Of a stretch of 64,000 bases of DNA, positions 41,591 to 62,776 are shown piece after piece. A program made the position numbers and the translations under genes. Each line of letters opens with the position of its first letter. Position 1 is the first letter of the stretch. The notes beneath the pieces were generated by a model. That model was given only the letters and a program-made list of their open reading frames with translations, ran no database searches and was not told where the DNA came from. Source of the DNA: Dietzia sp. ANT_WB102 (GTDB lineage: Bacteria > Actinomycetota > Actinomycetes > Mycobacteriales > Mycobacteriaceae); contig NZ_VOBA01000001.1 in the NCBI RefSeq assembly GCF_008369165.1, positions 806,001 to 870,000 on the forward strand, read 5' to 3'.

Positions 41591-42025
41591 TCAGGCCTCC
41601 GGTAGGGATGCCCGTTCCCAGGCGGCCACCGGCCCCGGGACCAGGTCGAACATCGGATGGGGATGCGGCGCGACGAGCTGGTCCAGCCACGGCGGGTCGC
41701 GTTCGATCACCTTCGCACGCAGGTGGGCCCACTCCAACGCGAGCTGCCCGTCGGTGAGCGGGAGCCGGTCAGGGCCGGGAGGCAGGACGACGCGGTCGCG
41801 GTCGAATCGGTAGCCGCGCGCGTCGGCGGCGTCGGCGAGCCCGTGCAGCCAGGTGGCGACCCCCGCGACCGGATCGACCAGGGTGCGGAAGCGCTCGAGC
41901 TGCGGATGGCTCCGATAGCCCGTGGTCAGCCCGCGGAGAACTTTCTGGGCCAGGAGCCCCTCGCGCCACCCGGCGACCAGCGCCGCGCGGTCGAGCAGGA
42001 TCGGATCGATGCTCCACAGGCGCAT
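41591..42025 (-). CDS. Pyrimidine dimer DNA glycosylase family protein
   Basis: A 144-residue member of the family related to T4 endonuclease V (Pyr_excise). MRLWSIDPILLDRAALVAGWREGLLAQKVLRG and YRSHPQLERF are the family signature, as is the late WAHLRAKVIERDPPW. T4 endonuclease V cleaves the glycosyl bond at UV-induced thymine dimers; cellular homologues are only presumed to do the same. A TATACT box ends seven bases before the ATG, suggesting a leaderless mRNA. It heads a short operon with the hydrolase. Confidence 0.8.
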   Translation of the reverse strand: MRLWSIDPILLDRAALVAGWREGLLAQKVLRGLTTGYRSHPQLERFRTLVDPVAGVATWLHGLADAADARGYRFDRDRVVLPPGPDRLPLTDGQLALEWAHLRAKVIERDPPWLDQLVAPHPHPMFDLVPGPVAAWERASLPEA

Positions 42026-42032
42026 TCCGGCG

Positions 42033-42038
42033 AGTATA
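42033..42038 (-). promoter_or_regulatory. Predicted -10 box for the dimer glycosylase gene, leaderless spacing
   Basis: On the minus strand TATACT ends seven bases before the ATG at 42025, and no ribosome binding site fits in between. Confidence 0.45.
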
Positions 42039-42081
42039 GGTGCGCACGGTGCTGCCGCAGGGAGCGAACGAGGAGACCGCC

Positions 42082-42180
42082 ATGACGACGACGCCGACCA
42101 TCGACGAGGTTATGGCCTACCCGCCCGCGCGGAGTCACTGCGTGCAGCGTTCTCCCAGGAGCCGATCGAAGATCCGATGA
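42082..42180 (+). pseudogene. Short reading frame cut by a 62-bp element, possible gene remnant
   Basis: An ATG with AGGAG seven bases upstream opens a frame encoding MTTTPTIDEVMAYPPA, which looks like a real protein N-terminus. At 42131 it runs into the 62-bp repeat element and stops 16 codons later, giving only 32 residues. I read it as the stump of a gene interrupted by the element or by a rearrangement at the cluster boundary. The original product cannot be named. Confidence 0.35.
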
Positions 42181-42192
42181 CTGAGTGACTCC
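42131..42192. repeat. 62-bp palindromic-ended element, left copy
   Basis: The element starts GGAGTCACT and ends CTGAGTGACTCC, so its termini are inverted repeats of at least nine bases. Its sequence matches the reverse complement of 50055-50116 at 43 of 62 positions by my count, with both ends and two inner blocks conserved. The two copies flank the glycosyltransferase cluster in opposite orientation. Confidence 0.8.
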
Positions 42193-42205
42193 ACGAGGCC
42201 GGGGG

Positions 42206-43447
42206 CTACCTCGTCGCTGCAGCGGAGACGGCTCGCCGGTAGAGCTCGAGGTGAGCGCCGGCGACCGAGCCGTCCTCAGCCTCAGGCGATCGCGGCGTGA
42301 CGGGCGGGCCATCGAGGGCGGATACCAGCGCGCGACGCAGGTCCTTCGCAATGGCGGCCGGGTCGTCGAGGGCGGGGTTGTAGAGAGCCGGGTTGTAGAG
42401 GGCCGGGGCCGGGGCGTGAACGGCGGAGTTTCCAAGGGCAGCCCCGGTGGCCCACTGCTCGGCCAGATACCCGATCCGCGGGACGACCGGCGGCACACCG
42501 AGGTCGCGGCACAGCTCCAACCAGCCGGAATGCGTCCCGTGACGGTGCGGGAGCACGAGCGCGTCGAACCCGGCCAGGACTGCGCACAGCTCGGCGTCGG
42601 TCAGGTGCTCGTGCGCCCGCACCTCGACGTCAGGGTGGGCGTCCAGCCGGTCGAGTTCGACCGCGGCGGCGTGACGGGGGTGCTCGGGATCGCGCGCGGC
42701 GGACAGCGCATCTGAGCGGACCATCACCGTCAGTCGCGTGTCGTCCGGCAGCGCCGCGACCAGCGGGGCGACAAGCTCATCGACGGCCACGCCGGCCCGC
42801 AGCGAGCCCAGCGCCAGGCCCACCATGCGGCGGGTAGATCGGGTGAGGCGGGTGAGCCGCAATGGTTCCGTGACCTCGGTCGGCATGAGCCGGGGATGAG
42901 GTATGACCTGTGCGTCGACGCCCCAGCGTTCACGGATCTCCGCGGCGGCGCCCTCGGTCAGCGTGATCACCGCGTCGGCGCCCCGCACCAGGTGGCCGGT
43001 CCGTTCGAGGTGGGCGGCGGGATCGGGCTCGTGGGGGTTGGTCAGGTCGTGCACGGTGACAACAAGCGGCATGGCCCGTGAGCGGAGCGCCGCGACGAAG
43101 TCAGCGATCTGGTCGGGGGTGCGGTGCTCGTAGCCGAAGTGCACGTGGACGAGGTCGGCGCCGTCGAGAACATCGGGCCGCTCGGCGGCTTCCAGGGTCG
43201 GGTGCGGCCACCAGCGGGCGGGCTCGGCCGGGTCCAGCACGGGATCGTCGAGGACGGTGAGGCCGGCTGCGGGCGAGATGGCGTGCCGGACGTAGTCATG
43301 CCCGGCCGGCACGGAGCGTACCCGGACCGGCGGAGGCGGTGCCGGGGTCGACCGCAGCCCCTGATGCGCCGACGACTGCGTCGCCCACTGCGACGACGAC
43401 TGCGGCGCCCGGGGTGGCCACGGGATCGGGGGAGAGCCAGAGTTCAC
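42206..43447 (-). CDS. Glycosyltransferase, GT-B type
   Basis: A 413-residue protein from a GTG at 43447 that has GGCGGG just upstream; longer starts would overlap the divergent WcbI-like gene. The first 55 residues are Ser/Pro/Gln-rich and poorly conserved-looking. The body resembles GT4-like transferases: DLVHVHFGYEHRTPDQIADF, PLVVTVHDL, a long HPRLMPTEV linker, and a C-terminal half with VLPHRHGTHSGWLELCRDLGVPPVVP in place of the usual E-x7-E loop. Near the end a 15-bp duplication gives ALYNP twice. It is transcribed away from the rest of the cluster from a shared intergenic region. Sugar donor and acceptor unknown. Confidence 0.68.
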   Translation of the reverse strand: MNSGSPPIPWPPRAPQSSSQWATQSSAHQGLRSTPAPPPPVRVRSVPAGHDYVRHAISPAAGLTVLDDPVLDPAEPARWWPHPTLEAAERPDVLDGADLVHVHFGYEHRTPDQIADFVAALRSRAMPLVVTVHDLTNPHEPDPAAHLERTGHLVRGADAVITLTEGAAAEIRERWGVDAQVIPHPRLMPTEVTEPLRLTRLTRSTRRMVGLALGSLRAGVAVDELVAPLVAALPDDTRLTVMVRSDALSAARDPEHPRHAAAVELDRLDAHPDVEVRAHEHLTDAELCAVLAGFDALVLPHRHGTHSGWLELCRDLGVPPVVPRIGYLAEQWATGAALGNSAVHAPAPALYNPALYNPALDDPAAIAKDLRRALVSALDGPPVTPRSPEAEDGSVAGAHLELYRRAVSAAATR

Positions 43448-43495
43448 CCCGCCACCGTGCCACGTCTGCCGGTTGCCGCCACCTGAGCCGCTGCC

Positions 43496-43501
43496 TAGCC
43501 T
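43496..43501 (+). promoter_or_regulatory. Predicted -10 box for the WcbI-like gene, leaderless spacing
   Basis: TAGCCT ends seven bases before the GTG at 43509, without a ribosome binding site. Confidence 0.35.
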
Positions 43502-43508
43502 CAGCGCA

Positions 43509-44408
43509 GTGAGCATCCCCGACCGGCCGACCGTCATGGTGATCGGCAATTGCCAGGCGGACGTCTACCGCGACCTGCTGCGTACCTCGGACGAGGTCCG
43601 TGTGGTGGACGTCCGGCCGGTGTACGAGATGACGGCCGAGGACATCCCGGACCTGCACGCCGACCTCGCCCGCACCGATGTGCTCATCGTCCAACCCGTC
43701 CGCGACGACTACCGCGACCTGCCCCTCGGCCACCGCCAGTTCGCTGCGCGGCTGCGGGCCTCGGCCACGATCATCCTGGTCCCGGTCCTCCGCTACGCCG
43801 GCCTGCACCCCTACCAGGTGCTGGTCCGCCCACCCCGCGACCGCTCACTGGTCCCGCCGGTCGCGCCGTATCACGACCTGCGGACACTCGTCGCTGCCGC
43901 GACCGGCGACCTCAGCGTGCTCGACTCTGCGCCGACCCCCGAGCAGGCGACGGCCGCGGCCCGTGAATCCGTCGAGGCGCTGCGCGTGCGCGAGCAGGCC
44001 CACGGCACGCTGGTCGCCTCCGACCTGCTCGAGGGCTATCCGCGCTGGCACACCATCAATCACCCCGACCGGGGCACGCTGGCCACGGTGTTCGACCGCA
44101 TCGTCGAGCGTGTGCCCGCCGGCCTCCTCAGCGATCCGCCCCGTATCGGGGACCGCGAACCCCTCGGCGCCACCCGCGCACCGGTGGAACACGCGGTCGA
44201 ACGGGCGCTCGGCCTCATCGGCAGGGGGGCGGACCCGGACGACGCCACCGGCGGAGCGCGCGGCGGAGAGTGGCTGGTGGACGGCGCCCCGGTGCCCAGC
44301 CGCGAGATCGTCGAGGCGCACCTCGCCTGGTACGCGGCCACGCCCGACGTGGTCGAGGAGGGCCTGCGACGGCACTCCGCCCGCATCGAACTGTTGGGGC
44401 TGAGGTGA
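43509..44408 (+). CDS. WcbI-like polysaccharide biosynthesis protein
   Basis: A 299-residue protein whose start TVMVIGNCQADVYRDLLR and RTDVLIVQPVRDDYRDLPLG are characteristic of the WcbI domain. WcbI is found in capsule loci, binds CoA and is proposed to be an acetyltransferase of capsular polysaccharide. The GTG at 43509 gives the family N-terminus; a -10 box lies seven bases upstream. It is the first gene of a rightward operon of glycosyltransferases and is coupled to the next by a GTGA overlap. O-acetylation or a related decoration of the glycan made by the cluster is the natural guess. Confidence 0.75.
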   Translation: MSIPDRPTVMVIGNCQADVYRDLLRTSDEVRVVDVRPVYEMTAEDIPDLHADLARTDVLIVQPVRDDYRDLPLGHRQFAARLRASATIILVPVLRYAGLHPYQVLVRPPRDRSLVPPVAPYHDLRTLVAAATGDLSVLDSAPTPEQATAAARESVEALRVREQAHGTLVASDLLEGYPRWHTINHPDRGTLATVFDRIVERVPAGLLSDPPRIGDREPLGATRAPVEHAVERALGLIGRGADPDDATGGARGGEWLVDGAPVPSREIVEAHLAWYAATPDVVEEGLRRHSARIELLGLR

Positions 44409-45412
44409 CCGGCCCGCGTGCCGGCGCGGTGAGCGCGCCGCTGACGATCGCGCTGGGGCCGCCCGAACACGGGGTCACGCGGTTCGCCGTGGACTGTGCT
44501 CGCGCTGCGGGGACGACACTGCTCGAGGTCACCGACGTCTCCGCGCTGCCGGCTGCCCTCTCCGAACACCCCGGGGCGCCGGTGCACCTGCATGTCACCG
44601 ATCCGCTGTTCGGAGCGACCCCAGACGACGCTGCTGCACATATAGAGAATGTGGCCGGTGCCCGCGCTGTCGCCGTCACCTTGCACGATGTGCCCCAGCC
44701 GGCCGAGGGGCTTGAGCGGTGCCGGCGACGGACGCATGCCTACCAGCGGATCGCAGGCGTGGCTGGGCTGGTGGTGGTGAGTTCTGAGCATGAGCAAAGC
44801 CTGTGTGCGGATGCGAGCATCGTCGTCGATGCGGTGATCCCCCTACCGGTGCCCGACCTGGCGCCGCCCGCCAGCCTCGCCCCCGACTCGCGCTCGGTGG
44901 GCGTGTTCGGTTTCCTGCATCCCGGCAAGGCTGTCGACGTGGTCGCCGAGGCGGTGGCCGCTCTCGCCGCCGCGGGGGACAACCGGGTGTCACTACGTCT
45001 GTTGGGTCAGCCCGCCGAGGGGCACGAGGACTACGTCCGCGCCGCGCTGGAAACGGTCCGGGCGGCCGGCGGTGGGGCCGAGCTGACGGGACGGATCGAC
45101 GACGACGACCTCGCGCGCGTCCTCGGCGAGGTAACCGTGCCCGTTGCCCTGTTCCGGAACGTGTCGGCGTCGGGCTCACTCAATACCTGGGCGGCTGCGG
45201 GGCGTCGCCCCCTGGTCTACGACGCGGACTACACGCGCGAGACGCAGCGCAGGAATCCCGGGTCCCTGCTTCTGACCGGCGGGGACGATCTCGCGGGCGA
45301 CCTGCGGCGACTCCTCGACGACCCAGCGCCCACCCGGCGCCCGGCCGCACCGTCGGGAATGGCCGAGCTCGGCCGGGCGTACCGGCGGGCGTGGGAGCGG
45401 TGGCTCGCGTGA
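44405..45412 (+). CDS. Glycosyltransferase-like protein, GT-B type
   Basis: A 335-residue protein starting at a GTG that overlaps the WcbI-like stop. The C-terminal half has SVGVFGFLHPGKAVDVVAEAVAAL, ELTGRIDDDDLARVLGEVTVPVALFRNVSASGSLNTWAAAGRRPLV. This is the layout of GT1/GT4 transferases with a weak nucleotide-sugar loop. The N-terminal half contains VTLHDVPQP, recalling the HDV of GT4 enzymes. It is less conserved than its neighbours and the donor site is not clear. Coupled at both ends by GTGA overlaps. Function in sequential glycan assembly is inferred from context. Confidence 0.65.
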   Translation: MTGPRAGAVSAPLTIALGPPEHGVTRFAVDCARAAGTTLLEVTDVSALPAALSEHPGAPVHLHVTDPLFGATPDDAAAHIENVAGARAVAVTLHDVPQPAEGLERCRRRTHAYQRIAGVAGLVVVSSEHEQSLCADASIVVDAVIPLPVPDLAPPASLAPDSRSVGVFGFLHPGKAVDVVAEAVAALAAAGDNRVSLRLLGQPAEGHEDYVRAALETVRAAGGGAELTGRIDDDDLARVLGEVTVPVALFRNVSASGSLNTWAAAGRRPLVYDADYTRETQRRNPGSLLLTGGDDLAGDLRRLLDDPAPTRRPAAPSGMAELGRAYRRAWERWLA

Positions 45413-46788
45413 ACGGCCGTGTGGACGTGGTGATCCCGTACTACCGGGACCAGAAGATGCTCGACCGCATCCTGGAGGCGCTGCGACGCCAGACCGGCCT
45501 AGATGGGTTCGGCGCCGGCGGAGTCGGGCTCGCTGGGGTCGGGCCCGGGGCGGACTGCTTCGCGCCGGCGTTGCGGGTGATCGTCGCGGACGACGGCTCG
45601 CCGACCCCGCCGGTCGTCCCGCCCGAGGTGACGGTCGTGCGCCAGGATGACCGCGGTTTTCGTGCCTCCGCCGCCCGCCACCTCGGTGCGCAGGCCGGCG
45701 ACGGCGACCTCCTGCTGTTCCTCGACGGTGACACCGTGCCCGCCCCCGGCTACGTCGTTACCCTGTGCGCGGCACTGGCGGGCAACCCGGATCTGCTGGT
45801 GGTGGGTCGTCGCCGGTACGGCCGGTTCGCCGACACCCCGCCCGGGGCCGAGCCCGCGCTCGAGCCGGAGGAGATTCTTCCCGACCCGACCTGGCCCGCG
45901 GCCTTCTACGCCGAGACCGCAGGTCTCACCCGCGGCGAGGATCTGTGGCGCGGGGTGTTGTCCGCGGTGTGCGGACTATCCCGCCGCCTCTACGACCTGG
46001 CGGGCGGATTCGATCCGGACGTCGTGGGCTACGGCGGTGAGGACTGGGAACTGGCGTGGCGCTGCGAACAGGCCGGCGGCCGCTTGCGCTACGTACCCGA
46101 CGCGGTGGCCTGGCACGACGGGCCGGACTGGGCCGGCCGCGCGGTCTGCGGAGACCACTCGGAGGCCACGGCGCGCCTCGCCGCGGAACTCGCCCGGAAG
46201 AACGCCGAATCCGCGCGACTGGCCGGTCTCATCGCATCGCCCCTCACCCGCCCGGCCAGCGGGATCTTCGCCCTGCCGTCGATCGCGGTCCACGTCCACG
46301 CCGCCGGGCCCGCCTTCACGGGAACGGGCTCCACCGCCGCGACCTGCCTCTCCCTGCTGGACTGGGGCGACGTATCCGTGACCGTCGATCCCGCCACACC
46401 CGACGCCGCGATGATCGCCGAGCTCTTCGCCGACGACCCCCGGGTGAACCTCGGAGGGCGAAGTTCATCGTGGCAGGAGAGGGCGCCGGGGGCGGGTCCT
46501 CGTCGTCGTCCCCCCGTCCTCGTCGACGTCCTGCGTCCCTGCACGCTCGGGTCGCTCGACCCGCGGCGCCTGCGCGCGCTGTGTCCCCCCGTGGGAGGCG
46601 TGACCCTGAACGACGACGAGGGCCGCGGTCTCGCGCGAATCCGCAGTGCGCGGGCGGTGGCGCGGGAGCAGGAATGGGGTGAGCAACCACCCGGGGAGGC
46701 TTCGATCCCGGCGTCGGACGTCGGGGTCCGCGGTGCCGGTGGCGACGGTGCAGGCGTGCGGCTCGAGCAAGTACTCGGTGGTTGGTGA
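45409..46788 (+). CDS. Glycosyltransferase family 2-type protein with C-terminal extension
   Basis: A 459-residue protein. Residues 1-260 are a GT-A fold: VDVVIPYYRDQKMLDRILEALRRQ, VIVADDGS, LLLFLDGDTVPAPGY with the metal-binding DxD, and VVGYGGEDWELAWRCEQAGG, the acceptor-side ED motif of galactosyltransferase-like enzymes. The C-terminal 190 residues include IAVHVHAAGPAFTGTGS and a low-complexity tail. This part may be a second domain or a degenerate transferase. GTG start overlaps the previous gene (GTGA). No membrane segment. Probably adds a hexose to the cluster's glycan; specificity unknown. Confidence 0.78.
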   Translation: MNGRVDVVIPYYRDQKMLDRILEALRRQTGLDGFGAGGVGLAGVGPGADCFAPALRVIVADDGSPTPPVVPPEVTVVRQDDRGFRASAARHLGAQAGDGDLLLFLDGDTVPAPGYVVTLCAALAGNPDLLVVGRRRYGRFADTPPGAEPALEPEEILPDPTWPAAFYAETAGLTRGEDLWRGVLSAVCGLSRRLYDLAGGFDPDVVGYGGEDWELAWRCEQAGGRLRYVPDAVAWHDGPDWAGRAVCGDHSEATARLAAELARKNAESARLAGLIASPLTRPASGIFALPSIAVHVHAAGPAFTGTGSTAATCLSLLDWGDVSVTVDPATPDAAMIAELFADDPRVNLGGRSSSWQERAPGAGPRRRPPVLVDVLRPCTLGSLDPRRLRALCPPVGGVTLNDDEGRGLARIRSARAVAREQEWGEQPPGEASIPASDVGVRGAGGDGAGVRLEQVLGGW

Positions 46789-46890
46789 GCCCCGGGGGTA
46801 GCTATCGGTGGCGGAGGGGCCCCCAGGGGGCCACCATCAGGTCCTGACACCTCCCGCACCCACCGGGGGTGACGCGACGAGAGGGGGCCC

Positions 46891-48159
46891 GTGGACAACC
46901 GTGACGAGCAGCGACTCGACATCGCAGTGATCGGCCCGTCGCGGTTCCCGATCAGGGAGCCGTACGCCGGTGGGCTCGAGGTGGTAGTGGCCAAAGAGGT
47001 GCGGGCCCTGCGCGAGCGCGGACACCGCGTCACGTTGTACGCAGCCGCCGGGAGCGACGGCCACGACCGCCGTGTCGAGTTCACCACCCTGGCCGCCGCC
47101 ACCGGACGTGGTGACAGCTACTACCCGCCCGGTGGGTACGAGGCCGACGCCGCGGAATTCGAGCGGGTCATGGACCACGTGGCGGTGTCCGGTTTCGACG
47201 TCGTACTCAACCACAGCCTGTCGCACGTCCCCCTGGTCCGCGCGGCCGAGATGGGCACGCCGATGATCACTACCCTGCACTGCCCGCAGATCACGCAGAT
47301 GCAGGAGGCCTTCGATCGTTTGGGGGCGGCCACCGGCGAGGTGCTCGCGGTGAGTCACTCCGTGCTCGGGTCCTGGCGGGTGCCCCACGGCGCGGAGGTG
47401 CTGCCCAACGGTGTGGACCTGCAGGAATGGGGGCCCCGGGCTGGAGCGACGGCCCGAACCGTTACCGGTAAGGCGATCCGGCCCACCACCGGTACGACGG
47501 TCCGGCCCACCACCGGTACGACGGTCCGGCCCGCCCCAGGTACGGCCGCCCGGTCGGCCGTCGGGCGCGCTGCCCGGCCCCACGACCTGCCCCACGACCG
47601 GCCCCACGACCGGCCCCACGATCGGCACCGTGCCGTGTGGACCGGCCGGATCGTGCCCGAGAAGGGCCCGCATCTGGCGGTCGAGGCCGCCCTCCGCGCC
47701 GGACTCGGACTCGACCTCGCCGGTCGTATCGGCGATAACCACTACATGGAAAGTGTGCTCGCGCCCCGGTTGCGCGACGCCGGTGACACCGTCCGGTACC
47801 ACGGTCCGCTCCGTCGGGACGAGATGGTGCCGCTGGTCGCGTCGGCCTCGGTCGCGCTGGTCACCCCATGCTGGGAAGAGCCGTTCGGGCTGACCGCCGT
47901 CGAGGCGTTGGCCTGTGGCACCCCGGTGGTGGCCCTGGCACGCGGCGGGATCCGGGAGGTCCTGTTCGGTCAGCCCGGCGTCGTGCTGGTGCACTCGGGG
48001 CGCGACCCGGTGTCCGCACTCGCGGCCGGCATCCCCGCCGCGCTGACCCTGCCCCGCGTCGAGATCGCACGGGCCGCAGCCGCCGCGTTTTCCCACGACG
48101 CCCGCATCGACTCCCTCGAGGCGCGGCTGCACGGGCTGCTAGTGGGTGCCGCCTCGTGA
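46891..48159 (+). CDS. Glycosyltransferase family 4 with a repeat-expanded linker
   Basis: A 422-residue GT4 enzyme. The N-terminal Rossmann domain (about 10-185) starts LDIAVIGPSRFPIREPYAGGLE and ends VLPNGVDLQEW. The C-terminal domain (about 250-420) starts VWTGRIVPEKGPHLAVEAA and has the donor loop TPCWEEPFGLTAVEALACGTPVVA. Between them, where other family members have a short linker, sit five octapeptide repeats like TGTTVRPT and three to four DRPH tetrapeptides. GAGGGGG precedes the GTG start. It is followed by an overlapping GTGA coupled gene. Donor sugar unknown. Confidence 0.85.
   Translation: MDNRDEQRLDIAVIGPSRFPIREPYAGGLEVVVAKEVRALRERGHRVTLYAAAGSDGHDRRVEFTTLAAATGRGDSYYPPGGYEADAAEFERVMDHVAVSGFDVVLNHSLSHVPLVRAAEMGTPMITTLHCPQITQMQEAFDRLGAATGEVLAVSHSVLGSWRVPHGAEVLPNGVDLQEWGPRAGATARTVTGKAIRPTTGTTVRPTTGTTVRPAPGTAARSAVGRAARPHDLPHDRPHDRPHDRHRAVWTGRIVPEKGPHLAVEAALRAGLGLDLAGRIGDNHYMESVLAPRLRDAGDTVRYHGPLRRDEMVPLVASASVALVTPCWEEPFGLTAVEALACGTPVVALARGGIREVLFGQPGVVLVHSGRDPVSALAAGIPAALTLPRVEIARAAAAAFSHDARIDSLEARLHGLLVGAAS
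47464..47631. repeat. In-frame tandem repeats (five 24-bp units, then 12-bp units)
   Basis: Units of 24 bp start at 47464, 47488, 47512, 47536 and 47560, the middle ones nearly identical and the outer ones diverging. From 47584 a 12-bp unit, GACCGGCCCCAC with variants, is repeated three times and ends in a partial copy. All are in frame with the GT4 gene and encode its interdomain linker. Confidence 0.85.
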
Positions 48160-49196
48160 TTGGCGTGTACGCCCACCATCAGGGCAGTGGACACGTGCAC
48201 CGAGCGCTCTCCGTCGCCGCCGCCCTGGACGACGAGGTCACCATCCTCACGTCCGCGCGCATCCACGACGAGGCGAATCCCGACCCCGGGCGGATCCGGA
48301 TCCTGCCGCTGCCACTGGACTACGGTGAGCCCGTTGCGGCGCCCGACCCCCCGAACGCTGATCCGACCGCCGGCGGCCGACTGCACTGGGCACCATTGCG
48401 GCAGTCCGGGCTGCGTAGGCGCATGGCGATGATCGCCGCGTGGATCGACAGTCACACTCCGGACGTGGTCTTGAGTGACATTTCCGTCGAGGTGACCCTC
48501 GCGGTGAGACTGACCGGGACACCAGTGGTCTCCATGGTGCTGCCGGGCCGTCGCGACGATGCCCCCCACGTACTCGCCCACGGGGTGTGTACGAGCCTGG
48601 TGGCAGGGTGGCCACGCGCGGCCGGTGCCCCCGTCCCCGCCGGCGCGGCCCGCCCGCTGGTTCCCGTCGGCGGGGTCTCGCGCTTCGCCTGCCGTCATCC
48701 CGAGCCGGGTGCCCGAGATCGCGGACGGATGCGGCCGCGAGTTCTGCACCTGCGGGGCTCCGGAGGTGGGGTCCACGACTCGCGCTGGGACGCCGTCCCC
48801 GAGCAGCTCGGCGACGTCGAGTGGATCTCGCTCGGCGGACCCGGCGGCCGCTGGGTGGCCGACCCGTGGGACGAGATATGTCGCGCAGATGCGGTGGTCA
48901 CTGCCGCCGGGCAGAGTTCGATAGCCGACCTCGCCGCCGCCGACGCACACATCGTGGTCGCGCCCGAGGAACGCCCCTTCGACGAGCAGGACGCCACCGC
49001 GGTCACCCTGGACCGGCTGGGTCTGGCTGAAGTAGTGAGCCGCCAGGACTCCGTGGACCAGCTGGTGGCGGTGGTTCGGCGCACGCTGGAGTGCTCCCGC
49101 TCCGGCGCGGGGACCGGTTCGGGTCTACGGCAGGCGTGGGAGGTCGACGGCGCGGCGACGCGTCTGGCCGGGGTGCTCGAGGCGGTGGCCCGATGA
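48156..49196 (+). CDS. Glycosyltransferase family 28-like (MurG/MGT type) protein
   Basis: A 346-residue GT-B protein. It opens with IGVYAHHQGSGHVHRALSVAAAL, the glycine-rich G-x-GH loop of MurG and macrolide glycosyltransferases. It contains DVVLSDISVEVTLAVRL, PRVLHLRGSGGG and DAVVTAAGQSSIADLAAADAHIVVAPEERPFDEQ, the donor-binding end of the GT28 C-terminal domain. The GTG start overlaps the GT4 stop and its own stop overlaps the next start (ATGA). No membrane segment. It probably transfers a sugar from a UDP- or dTDP-donor; acceptor unknown. Confidence 0.78.
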   Translation: MIGVYAHHQGSGHVHRALSVAAALDDEVTILTSARIHDEANPDPGRIRILPLPLDYGEPVAAPDPPNADPTAGGRLHWAPLRQSGLRRRMAMIAAWIDSHTPDVVLSDISVEVTLAVRLTGTPVVSMVLPGRRDDAPHVLAHGVCTSLVAGWPRAAGAPVPAGAARPLVPVGGVSRFACRHPEPGARDRGRMRPRVLHLRGSGGGVHDSRWDAVPEQLGDVEWISLGGPGGRWVADPWDEICRADAVVTAAGQSSIADLAAADAHIVVAPEERPFDEQDATAVTLDRLGLAEVVSRQDSVDQLVAVVRRTLECSRSGAGTGSGLRQAWEVDGAATRLAGVLEAVAR

Positions 49197-50038
49197 ATGT
49201 CGCGGCGTCGATCGCAGTGGTGACAGTCTGCACACCCGATCGCGCCGAGCACCTCCGCTCGCAGCGGCGGGCGATGGCCCAGCACCTGCCCGGCGCCCGT
49301 CACGTCGTGGTGTTGCCCGAGCGGCCCGGCAGCGCCGAGCTGGCCGCCGAACTCGCCGCAGACGGGGTCATCATCGTGGAGTTGCCGGCTGGCCCCGCCC
49401 TCCCCGTCGCCCGGAGCCGCAATCTCGGCGGCGACCGAGCGGCCGAACTCGACGTGCAGTTGATTGTCTTCCTCGACGTCGACTGCATGCCGGGGCCCGA
49501 TCTGGGGTGGTACTACTCCGAGCTACCCCACGGCGCCGTCGGCCTGGGCCCGGTCACCTACCTCCCCGAGTCCGCCGGAGTTCCCGAGCCCGCCGAGCTG
49601 CCGTCGTGGACGGACCCGCACCCTGCCCGCCCGTTCCCCGAACACGGGACCAGCGAGCTGGAACTGGACGAGTGCGGCATGTTCTGGTCGCTGTCGTTCG
49701 CCCTGCGACCGGAGCTGTGGAAGCGCATCCGCGTGGATTTCGGCGGATTCGATGAGGACTTCACCGGCTACGGCGCCGAGGACACCGACTTCGGCCGCAG
49801 ACTGCTGTATCGCCGCGTACCGGTGGTGTTGGTGGCGGGGGCCCACGCGTACCACCGTTGGCATCCGGCGTCCGATCCGCCGGTCGAGCATCTGGATGAC
49901 CTGCTGCGCAACGGCGCCCACTACGCCGAGCGCTGGGGTCGGTGGCCGGCGCCGGGGTGGTTCGCTGAGTTCGAGCGGATGGGGCTGGTTCGCCGACGCG
50001 GCGACGGCTGGGTGGCCGCCCCGTCTTCCGAGGGCTGA
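49193..50038 (+). CDS. Glycosyltransferase family 2-type protein
   Basis: A 281-residue GT-A enzyme. IAVVTVCTPDRAEHLRSQRRAM, VARSRNLGGDRAAELDVQLIVFLDVDCMPGP with the DxD metal motif, and FGGFDEDFTGYGAEDTDFGRRLL, the acceptor-side ED motif, resemble the second half of the GT2-type gene at 45409. The two may have arisen by duplication. It is the last gene of the operon, coupled by ATGA, and is followed by the right 62-bp element. Late AYHRWHP fits a C-terminal His for acceptor binding. Confidence 0.82.
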   Translation: MNVAASIAVVTVCTPDRAEHLRSQRRAMAQHLPGARHVVVLPERPGSAELAAELAADGVIIVELPAGPALPVARSRNLGGDRAAELDVQLIVFLDVDCMPGPDLGWYYSELPHGAVGLGPVTYLPESAGVPEPAELPSWTDPHPARPFPEHGTSELELDECGMFWSLSFALRPELWKRIRVDFGGFDEDFTGYGAEDTDFGRRLLYRRVPVVLVAGAHAYHRWHPASDPPVEHLDDLLRNGAHYAERWGRWPAPGWFAEFERMGLVRRRGDGWVAAPSSEG

Positions 50039-50054
50039 GCCGCCGGCCGCGCGT

Positions 50055-50116
50055 GGAGTCACTCAGTCACGTTCAACGGGCTGGCGTCCTGGGGAAACGC
50101 TGCGCTGAGTGACTCC
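50055..50116. repeat. 62-bp palindromic-ended element, right copy
   Basis: It begins GGAGTCACTCAG and ends CTGAGTGACTCC, so it has 12-bp perfect terminal inverted repeats and could also act as a hairpin between the converging glycosyltransferase and ABC transporter genes. It is inverted relative to the related copy at 42131-42192 and the same length. Confidence 0.8.
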
Positions 50117-50171
50117 AGGCGAGCTGCGGGGCGGCGGAGCGGGGACCCGCGAGTGCCGGGCGGGAGCCCGG

Positions 50172-50969
50172 TCAGCCGAGGAAGGCCTGATCCGAGAGGG
50201 TCGCGCCCTTGATATTGGTGAACTCGCGCAGCAGGTCCTGCACCGTGAGCGTGGATTTGGTCCCGGCGTCGGCCTCGTAGACGATCCGGCCCTCGTGCAT
50301 CATGATGAGCCGGTTGCCCAGGCGGATGGCCTGCTCCATGTTGTGCGTGACCATGAGGGTGGTCAGACCGCCCTCGCGGACGATGCGCTCGGTGATCGTG
50401 GTGACCAACTCCGCACGCTGGGGATCGAGAGCTGCGGTGTGCTCGTCGAGCAGCATGATGCGCGGTTGGGTGAAGCCGGCCATGAGCAGCGAGAGCGCCT
50501 GGCGCTGACCGCCGGAGAGCAAGCCGACCTTGGCGGTGAGTCGGTCCTCGAGACCCAGCTCCAACATGGCGAGCTGCTCGCCGAACTGGCCGCGACGCTT
50601 CTTGCTGAGCCCCGGTCCCAGCCCGCGCCGCTGCCCGCGCAGCAGCGCCAACGACAGGTTCTCCTCGATGGTGAGATTGGGCGCGGTCCCGGCGAGGGGG
50701 TCCTGGAAGACGCGACCGATGTACTTAGCCCGCTTGTAGTCGGGCATCCGGTTGACGCGCACGCCGTCGATGTCGACGGCGCCGCTGTCGACCGGCAGCT
50801 TGCCCGACACCGCGTTGAGCAGCGTCGACTTGCCAGCCCCGTTGGAGCCGATCACGGTGACGAAGTCGCCCTCGTCCAGGGTGAGGGTGAGATCGCGTAG
50901 CGCCTTGCGCTCGTTCGCGGTGCCCGGGAAAAACGTCTTGGACACTCCGGATACGGACAGCATCGTCAT
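50172..50969 (-). CDS. ABC transporter ATPase, TrpZ-like
   Basis: A 265-residue ABC ATPase with Walker A GSNGAGKST (about residues 40-48), signature LLSGGQRQALSL, Walker B IMLLDEHTAALDP and switch His in VTHNMEQA. The start ATG overlaps the permease stop by ATGA; a second ATG two codons later has a better-spaced AGGAGG and is equally possible. The operon order binding protein, permease, ATPase and the protein types match the TrpXYZ class, whose known members import tryptophan or tyrosine. The substrate here is not shown by the sequence. Confidence 0.85.
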   Translation of the reverse strand: MTMLSVSGVSKTFFPGTANERKALRDLTLTLDEGDFVTVIGSNGAGKSTLLNAVSGKLPVDSGAVDIDGVRVNRMPDYKRAKYIGRVFQDPLAGTAPNLTIEENLSLALLRGQRRGLGPGLSKKRRGQFGEQLAMLELGLEDRLTAKVGLLSGGQRQALSLLMAGFTQPRIMLLDEHTAALDPQRAELVTTITERIVREGGLTTLMVTHNMEQAIRLGNRLIMMHEGRIVYEADAGTKSTLTVQDLLREFTNIKGATLSDQAFLG

Positions 50970-62493: not shown

Positions 62494-62594
62494 GACATCC
62501 TCCGGGAGTCGGAGGACGAAAGCAGCTCGGCTGCGACGTGGACGCCGCGGCACGCAACCGTCCTTCGTCCGAGGTCAGTTCGTACGGCGCCGCA

Positions 62595-62712
62595 GTACCG
62601 GCCGACCTGGCTTGCCCGCTCGAGGTGGGATCACAGTTGCGGGACAGCGCCGGATTCTCACCGACTTCCACCGCGTACCACGGGTGTCCGGCGCGGGAGC
62701 CGGACCACCTGA
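62595..62712 (-). ncRNA. Cobalamin riboswitch
   Basis: On the minus strand the conserved core GTCGGTGAGAATCCGGCGCT (ending near 62647) is followed by GTCCCGCAACTGTGATCCC and by the B12 box AAGCCAGGTCGGCCGG (62598-62613). These are the diagnostic blocks of the adenosyl/aquo-cobalamin riboswitch. A TACCCT box (62712-62717) just upstream could be its promoter. It lies 102 bases before btuF and should switch the operon off when cobalamin is plentiful. Confidence 0.9.
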
Positions 62713-62776
62713 GGGTAGCCGAGCGGCGGGCCCGCAGCGGAACCGTCCGCCGGGCCCCGTGCCCCCGGTCTGAGCC

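Follow-up and report, generated by a model that had tools for sequence, protein, structure and literature searches.

Bacterial repeats resembling miniature inverted-repeat transposable elements (MITEs), among them RUP, ERIC, CIR and Correia, are presented in the sections of PMC2229807 that deal with them as non-coding, shorter than 200 bp, bounded by terminal inverted repeats and mainly intergenic, and most of these small repeats as A+T-rich. The transposases associated with repetitive extragenic palindromes (REPs), known as REP-associated tyrosine transposases (RAYTs), are presented in the corresponding part of PMC2817692 as gammaproteobacterial and as having a REP on either side; REPs carry a GT(A/G)G head. 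Here, we describe family A, a repeat from a 3.28-Mb Dietzia genome (contig NZ_VOBA01000001.1, assembly GCF_008369165.1; below, the own genome), two copies of which stand in inverted orientation at the borders of a glycosyltransferase cluster in a 64-kb window of the contig, the window being the whole stretch of DNA analysed. The two elements are probably ordinary members of a dispersed repeat family that is confined to Dietzia, does not code for protein, folds into hairpins and spreads by copying, and family A is most likely a new genus-restricted addition to the small dispersed palindromic repeats. In the open-licence PubMed Central literature, we found no paper on Dietzia repeats of this kind. 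A false island boundary is removed, and a genus-specific hairpin repeat is described.

Family A resembles the MITE-like repeats in being dispersed, in lacking coding capacity and in having terminal inverted repeats, but it differs from them in its GC content (59-69% in 25 own copies), in having neither TA ends nor a detected target-site duplication, and in that no larger element of the own genome shares its left end. The missing duplication and the absence of such a larger element in the own genome speak against a MITE formed by internal deletion of a transposon, although a parent in a genome outside the sample is possible. With the REPs it has in common short palindromic intergenic units that are multicopy and often arrayed; it differs from them in its length of 62-68 bp and in lacking their head, as no GT(A/G)G at the foot of the palindrome was common to the aligned copies by eye. 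A REP/RAYT system was ruled out because the Y1 transposase family (Y1_Tnp, PF01797) was matched in none of 19 Dietzia genomes, the control being positive in 5 of 14 known genomes. Mycobacterial interspersed repetitive units (MIRUs) are found in bacteria related to Dietzia and can form tandem arrays at some loci. Compared by description and not by sequence, family A is likewise interspersed and capable of forming tandem arrays, while the Dietzia repeat is characterised by hairpin ends and a fixed length. Bidirectional intrinsic terminators, of which a second Dietzia repeat discussed below (family B) is apparently one, are also hairpins between convergent gene ends and sometimes occupy the same orthologous junctions, but family A has no T-tract and contains a constant asymmetric inner motif. 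An integron attC site has a right end of the GTTRRRY type and is accompanied by an integrase; we rejected this candidate because the own copies lack such an end by eye, no search having been aimed at integrases. The string GTTGAGT is present in many copies of Candidatus D. intestinigallinarum (G009), at the end opposite to that expected of attC.

Both 62-mers were confirmed at the positions and with the ends given by the sequence-only reading from which this work started, and they agree at 43 of 62 positions when one is inverted and at 29 of 62 when compared directly. They are the sole matches of the family within the window, and seven genes lie between them according to the codon-usage gene caller built for this analysis, which worked without annotation. 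The length of 62 bp is right for the matching ends but not for the full unit, which is conserved over 68 bp including flanks of the form cgt...acg. When the conserved ends were searched for with a free centre, 10 places were found in the own genome, every one of 62 bp, with spacers of 20-50 and totals of 38-68 permitted; the ends written backwards as a control found none. A pattern of fixed length with up to three mismatches found 19 places, which are of equal length by construction. We further built a covariance model that allows insertions and deletions from 19 own-genome copies (model R1), and at E <= 1e-6 it identified 26 places, each spanning 68 bases, in addition to one weak place at E = 0.09. 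With 150 of 3240 first-look candidates scored in that search, 26 is possibly a lower bound; the E-values of this model and of model R2 below are rough, as the calibration was shortened, and figures drawn from long lists refer to the matches listed. The earlier description of the pair as MITE-like or REP-like thus holds if the terms are taken loosely, for any small inverted-repeat unit dispersed over many places in the genome.

The own-genome consensus consists of cgtGGAGTCACTGCGTGCAGCGTTtccCAGG, 16 free bases and GCTGACgGAGTGACTCCacg, with near-constant complementary ends of about 12 bases and the constant asymmetric inner motif CAGCGTTTcCCCAGG. The 16-base stretch is free in sequence and fixed in length: the mean identity among own copies is 0.81 outside it and 0.36 inside, compared with 0.30 from composition alone. 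This strict length around a free stretch is one of two features that make the repeat worth attention; among matches in other genomes, a few span 61-70 bases. Among the own copies, covariation between paired arm positions does not exceed that of shuffles (74 of 500 score as high), so what is conserved in these copies is the sequence. Searches of plasmids and of viral contigs gave no family A match, and Rfam 15 gave none at 42000-50300 up to E = 1. The variable 16-mer was considered as a guide or spacer and rejected, as its best matches equalled those of shuffled 16-mers, both in 204 kb of own DNA (13.32 versus 13.28) and locally (11.8 versus 11.6). A dependence on replication polarity was also rejected: the first ten copies looked ordered by strand along the contig, whereas the full set of 26 places is mixed.

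Where the copies lie relative to genes was analysed for 25 of the 26 own places (place 2007847 was left out). Fifteen are in convergent gaps, seven in co-directional and three in divergent ones, so that 22 of the 25 are downstream of at least one gene. Convergent pairs make up about 20% of the background (20 of 106 adjacent gene pairs in four stretches that themselves bear elements), and the enrichment is significant against these pairs (p = 6e-6) as well as against the 15 of 67 convergent among gaps of at least 50 bp (p = 6e-5). All but one of the copies are fully intergenic, the exception reaching 6 bases into the end of a called gene, and in the seven co-directional gaps the element is oriented with the genes in three and against them in four. 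The flanking proteins (50 references to 49 distinct genes) have varied functions where Pfam matched them, one of them (L035) matching a family named for phage holins; nine references had no match at E <= 1e-8, and no transposase, integrase or recombinase family was among the matches. A regulon was rejected on the ground that the functions of the flanking genes are unrelated.

In the collections searched, which sampled one genome per species, the repeat was confined to the genus. A pattern scan of the genomes of 84,980 species returned 27 stretches, all titled Dietzia, with records of the own genome possibly outside the scan. At E <= 0.01, R1 matched in 10 of 18 other Dietzia and in none of 12 genomes from other genera, and in an order-wide draw at E <= 1e-4 it matched in none of 297 other genomes, under the same strict filters that recovered 17 of the 26 own places. 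Model R2, built from copies of arm class II (see below), had matches in 10 of 23 Dietzia, the own genome among them, at E <= 0.001. Neither model matched in five Dietzia (G003, G012, G014, G016 and G017), and the copy number across the genus extends from about 45 down to none detected.

The copies fall into three classes by their arms, with length and inner motif in common to all. Class I, with arms on GAGTC, includes the own copies and those inspected in G009, G004 (Candidatus D. intestinipullorum) and G006. Class II, with AGCCGTCACT-type arms, includes most copies inspected in G010 (Dietzia sp. NCCP-2495), G005, G015 and G011, and class III, with TGGTC/GACCACTCG-type arms and CACGTTT..CCAGG, was seen at one junction in G002, G005, G010 and G015. 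Counting the core motif CANCGTTTNCCCAGG across the genus proved over-strict and missed class III, and was therefore excluded from the counts. The pairing of class II covaries on most measures: its score was reached by none of 500 shuffles and lay above all six slid versions, while 40 of 500 shuffles reached its number of pairs with changes in both partners. G009 has 45 half-element matches, its copies on separate contigs have cores that match at 13-14 of 16 bases, and family A forms tandem arrays there in units of 94-124 bp (L070, L071, L072, L075 and L077). Several contigs of this genome terminate within such arrays.

To see what occupies the same junctions in other species, we compared loci between genomes, inspecting the junctions of relatives by eye. 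For 11 of the 25 own copies (a raw count over the loci compared), one or more other Dietzia have an element at the corresponding orthologous junction; the number is 12 if the copy at the left border of the cluster, where relatives have class III, is included. The occupants have the same orientation in 11 and the opposite orientation in 6 of 17 junction-genome pairs, as if single elements flipped in place. The idea that the repeats allow inversion finds support in single elements turned between species, but an invertible cluster is contradicted by synteny. Class I elements turned round at a junction shared by two species can be seen in L024 compared with L063 and in L038 compared with L071/L077. 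Orthologous occupants are no more alike than non-orthologous ones: identities are 0.28 in the core and 0.75 in the rest for 10 orthologous class I pairs, and 0.32 and 0.76 for 565 non-orthologous pairs. Each occupant follows the version of its own genome, within which, as given above for the own copies, identity outside the core is higher. In four aligned junction pairs, the intergenic DNA was too diverged between species to give an exact empty site.

Some of these junctions carry family B, a further hairpin repeat of Dietzia, which takes the forms AAGAGCGTTCCGCACAC..CGCCCGAG..GTGTGCGGAACGCTCTT and AGAGCGTTCCGCACAC..CGCCCGAG..GTGTGCGGAACGCTCT and variants of them and is unrelated to family A. 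Its outer ends are A-rich and T-rich, resembling a two-way intrinsic terminator. A first, looser pattern for this family returned mostly noise and was replaced by a later one. Exact-arm copies were found in 15 of 23 Dietzia genomes; there are 14 such copies in G017 and none in the own genome. In G017, one of the genomes matched by neither R1 nor R2, family B occupies 16 intergenic places in the 1.02 Mb examined. It is present in four of five convergent junctions orthologous to element junctions of the own genome (L028, L032, L034, L035 and L037, where the neighbours are strictly adjacent and convergent and the gap is at least 60 bases) and in 6 of 66 other gaps (p = 0.001); one of the four is the junction at the right border of the cluster, where the coincidence first came up. 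Keeping L025, where one more gene was called between the two neighbours in G017, changes the comparison to 4 of 6 versus 6 of 65 (p = 0.003), and L038 was excluded for its 9-base gap in G017. At L020 and L023, outside the test, family B stands beside the sole neighbour that could be mapped in G017. The two families lie side by side in one gap at L020 and L032 of the own genome and in one gap of G011, and their copy numbers across 19 genomes (those of family A being approximate hand tallies) show no significant correlation (rho = -0.42, p = 0.07). The second feature worth attention is that, from one species to another, the same gene-end junctions are reused by hairpin families that are unrelated.

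If family A is a repeat spread by copying, its copies would arise through a process of duplication that acts either on the hairpin or on its ends, and would persist chiefly at the 3' ends of genes, where an insertion harms least. Replacement of the copies over time could then leave the same junction with different versions or different hairpin families in different species, and any effect on neighbouring genes would be expected at the 3' ends of transcripts. Several observations weigh against this explanation. No target-site duplication was found in 25 copies (135 tests, best z = 2.1), no transposon of the own genome shares the ends (20 of 20 half-element matches are whole elements), and no copying enzyme was found in the search for PF01797 in 19 Dietzia genomes or among the Pfam-matched flanking proteins. 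The three copies in divergent gaps also fit it poorly. Moreover, the ends are constant beside diverged cores, while drift after insertion predicts otherwise, which would imply selection on each copy in place. Finally, the overlap with the terminator-like hairpins of G017 (4 of 5 versus 6 of 66) exceeds what mere tolerance predicts, and a role at gene ends is suggested by the sharing of junctions with family B. Because of these signs of selection in place and of a gene-end role, two other explanations, a terminator and the site of a trans-acting factor, are kept beside that of a repeat spread by copying.

The first would regard the elements as functional two-way 3'-end modules, that is terminators or mRNA-end hairpins, maintained by selection junction by junction and interchangeable with other hairpins, and we consider it possible, if doubtful. 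It would account for the 15 of 25 copies in convergent gaps, for the finding that only 4 of the 25 gaps have another strong short-loop hairpin, and for the presence of family B at orthologous junctions, both in G017 (where the 66 other gaps are likewise convergent) and at the right border of the cluster, where it was found in 8 of 13 relatives (L148, L150, L151, L153, L154, L156, L157 and L160, in each case after the glycosyltransferase stop). However, at least four T per 10 bases were found in none of 50 outer ends, so family A does not qualify as an intrinsic terminator of the canonical kind. A terminator would need neither a constant asymmetric motif nor a fixed length, the gaps in which families A and B occur together speak against this explanation, and at the same right border no hairpin is evident in 4 of the 13 relatives; in the remaining one, G009, there is a different perfect hairpin.

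The elements could alternatively be binding sites of a factor that acts in trans on DNA or RNA and differs in specificity from species to species through drift, with the arms of most copies changing together in each genome, which we think unlikely. In favour of such a factor, the arms shift together by species (GGAGTCACT, TTGAGTCG and GAGCCGTCACT) while inner motif and length stay constant, the occupants of orthologous junctions match the version of their own genome, and the covariation score of class II exceeds all shuffles, although its number of pairs altered in both arms does not. A copy number that falls from about 45 to none detected within one genus is hard to reconcile with it, as are the several arm classes found together in G005 and G010 and the lack of covariation beyond shuffles in the own class I copies. 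Clonal spread of a repeat, moreover, yields equal similarity within a genome.

A related and equally unlikely proposal is that convergent junctions in Dietzia are fixed slots in which unrelated hairpins, namely family B and the three arm classes of family A, replace one another over evolution, the same arm version being shared by most copies of a genome. If this were true, it would call for a process of targeted replacement or for a trans-acting factor that recognises hairpins at gene ends, and such a factor would recognise the fixed 62-bp geometry together with the CAGCGTTTcCCCAGG motif.

The sequence-only reading had also raised the possibility that the elements moved the cluster as an island, or that they allow inversion. 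Gene order in relatives does not agree with this. Of 22 other Dietzia, 13 were found to have the last glycosyltransferase of the cluster; in all 13 it adjoins the same ABC transporter gene, and at none of these junctions was a family A element seen by eye. At the left border, the order in relatives is a Pyr_excise-like gene, an alkD-like gene for DNA alkylation repair (about 226 amino acids, PF08713) and the first glycosyltransferase of the cluster; the alkD-like gene is present in 12 of 13 loci (absent in G005), and the first cluster gene adjoins the alkD-like or the nuclease gene in 10 of 13, without a class I element there. The left junctions of these 13 relatives comprise four clearly occupied by class III, which is turned the other way from the own class I copy, four with partial remains, two without an element (gaps of less than 10 bases) and three without an adjoining glycosyltransferase, and the hairpin families at their left and right junctions are different. 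Since the last gene keeps the same ABC neighbour in 13 of 13 without family A, the cluster is ancestral and cannot be read as an island; the elements are occupants of its borders that came later or were exchanged. Scattered copies without a link to cluster borders had been named beforehand as the outcome that would make them an ordinary dispersed repeat, and copies at many unrelated junctions are what we found. Most likely, the copies flank the cluster because both of its end genes point outward, making its borders convergent gene-end junctions; their position would then reflect the preference of the repeat for gene ends and would not mean that the cluster was carried by them.

In G001 (88% complete), we did not find the last cluster gene, and the alkD-like gene lies directly beside the ABC gene. 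Comparison with this genome, in which no cluster was found, places the breakpoints inside the same two gene-end junctions, as the sequence-only reading would have it, but the hairpin between the two genes (L126, 560-760) is yet another one and is not recognised as family A. Despite these breakpoints and the inverted copies that bound the cluster, a mobile or invertible island with the two copies as its ends is highly improbable and was rejected for reasons of synteny, there being in addition 24 other own places unconnected to the cluster.

The features at the two borders are collected in the table. Copy 1 is separated by 13 bases from the stop codon of the left glycosyltransferase and copy 2 by 16 bases from that of the right one, both counted from the 62-bp unit. 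The gene start at 42082, which copy 1 had been thought to interrupt, does match the first codons of the alkD-like gene, but that gene is not simply split by the element, as its remainder is gone from the own genome.

Table. Features at the left and right borders of the glycosyltransferase cluster (positions in the 64-kb window)
Feature	Position	Strand	Basis
Pyrimidine dimer DNA glycosylase-like gene, left neighbour	41591..42025	-	PF03013
alkD-like gene remnant, about 12 codons (MTTTPTIDEVMA)	42082..42117	+	By-eye comparison with the gene in 12 relatives; PF08713 in G011
Copy 1, family A, arm class I	42128..42195 (62-bp unit 42131-42192)	+	R1, 76.1 bits; exact ends
Glycosyltransferase, left end of cluster	42206..43312	-	PF13439; gene call
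Glycosyltransferase, right end of cluster	49193..50038	+	Weak PF10111; gene call
Copy 2, family A, arm class I	50052..50119 (62-bp unit 50055-50116)	-	R1, 67.1 bits; exact ends
ABC transporter ATPase, convergent right neighbour	50172..50969	-	PF00005

Among the glycosyltransferases of the cluster there is a WcbI-family polysaccharide biosynthesis gene (PF18588) at 43509-44408. Elsewhere in the window, a cobalamin riboswitch (RF00174, 43.3 bits) was identified on the minus strand at 62583-62719.

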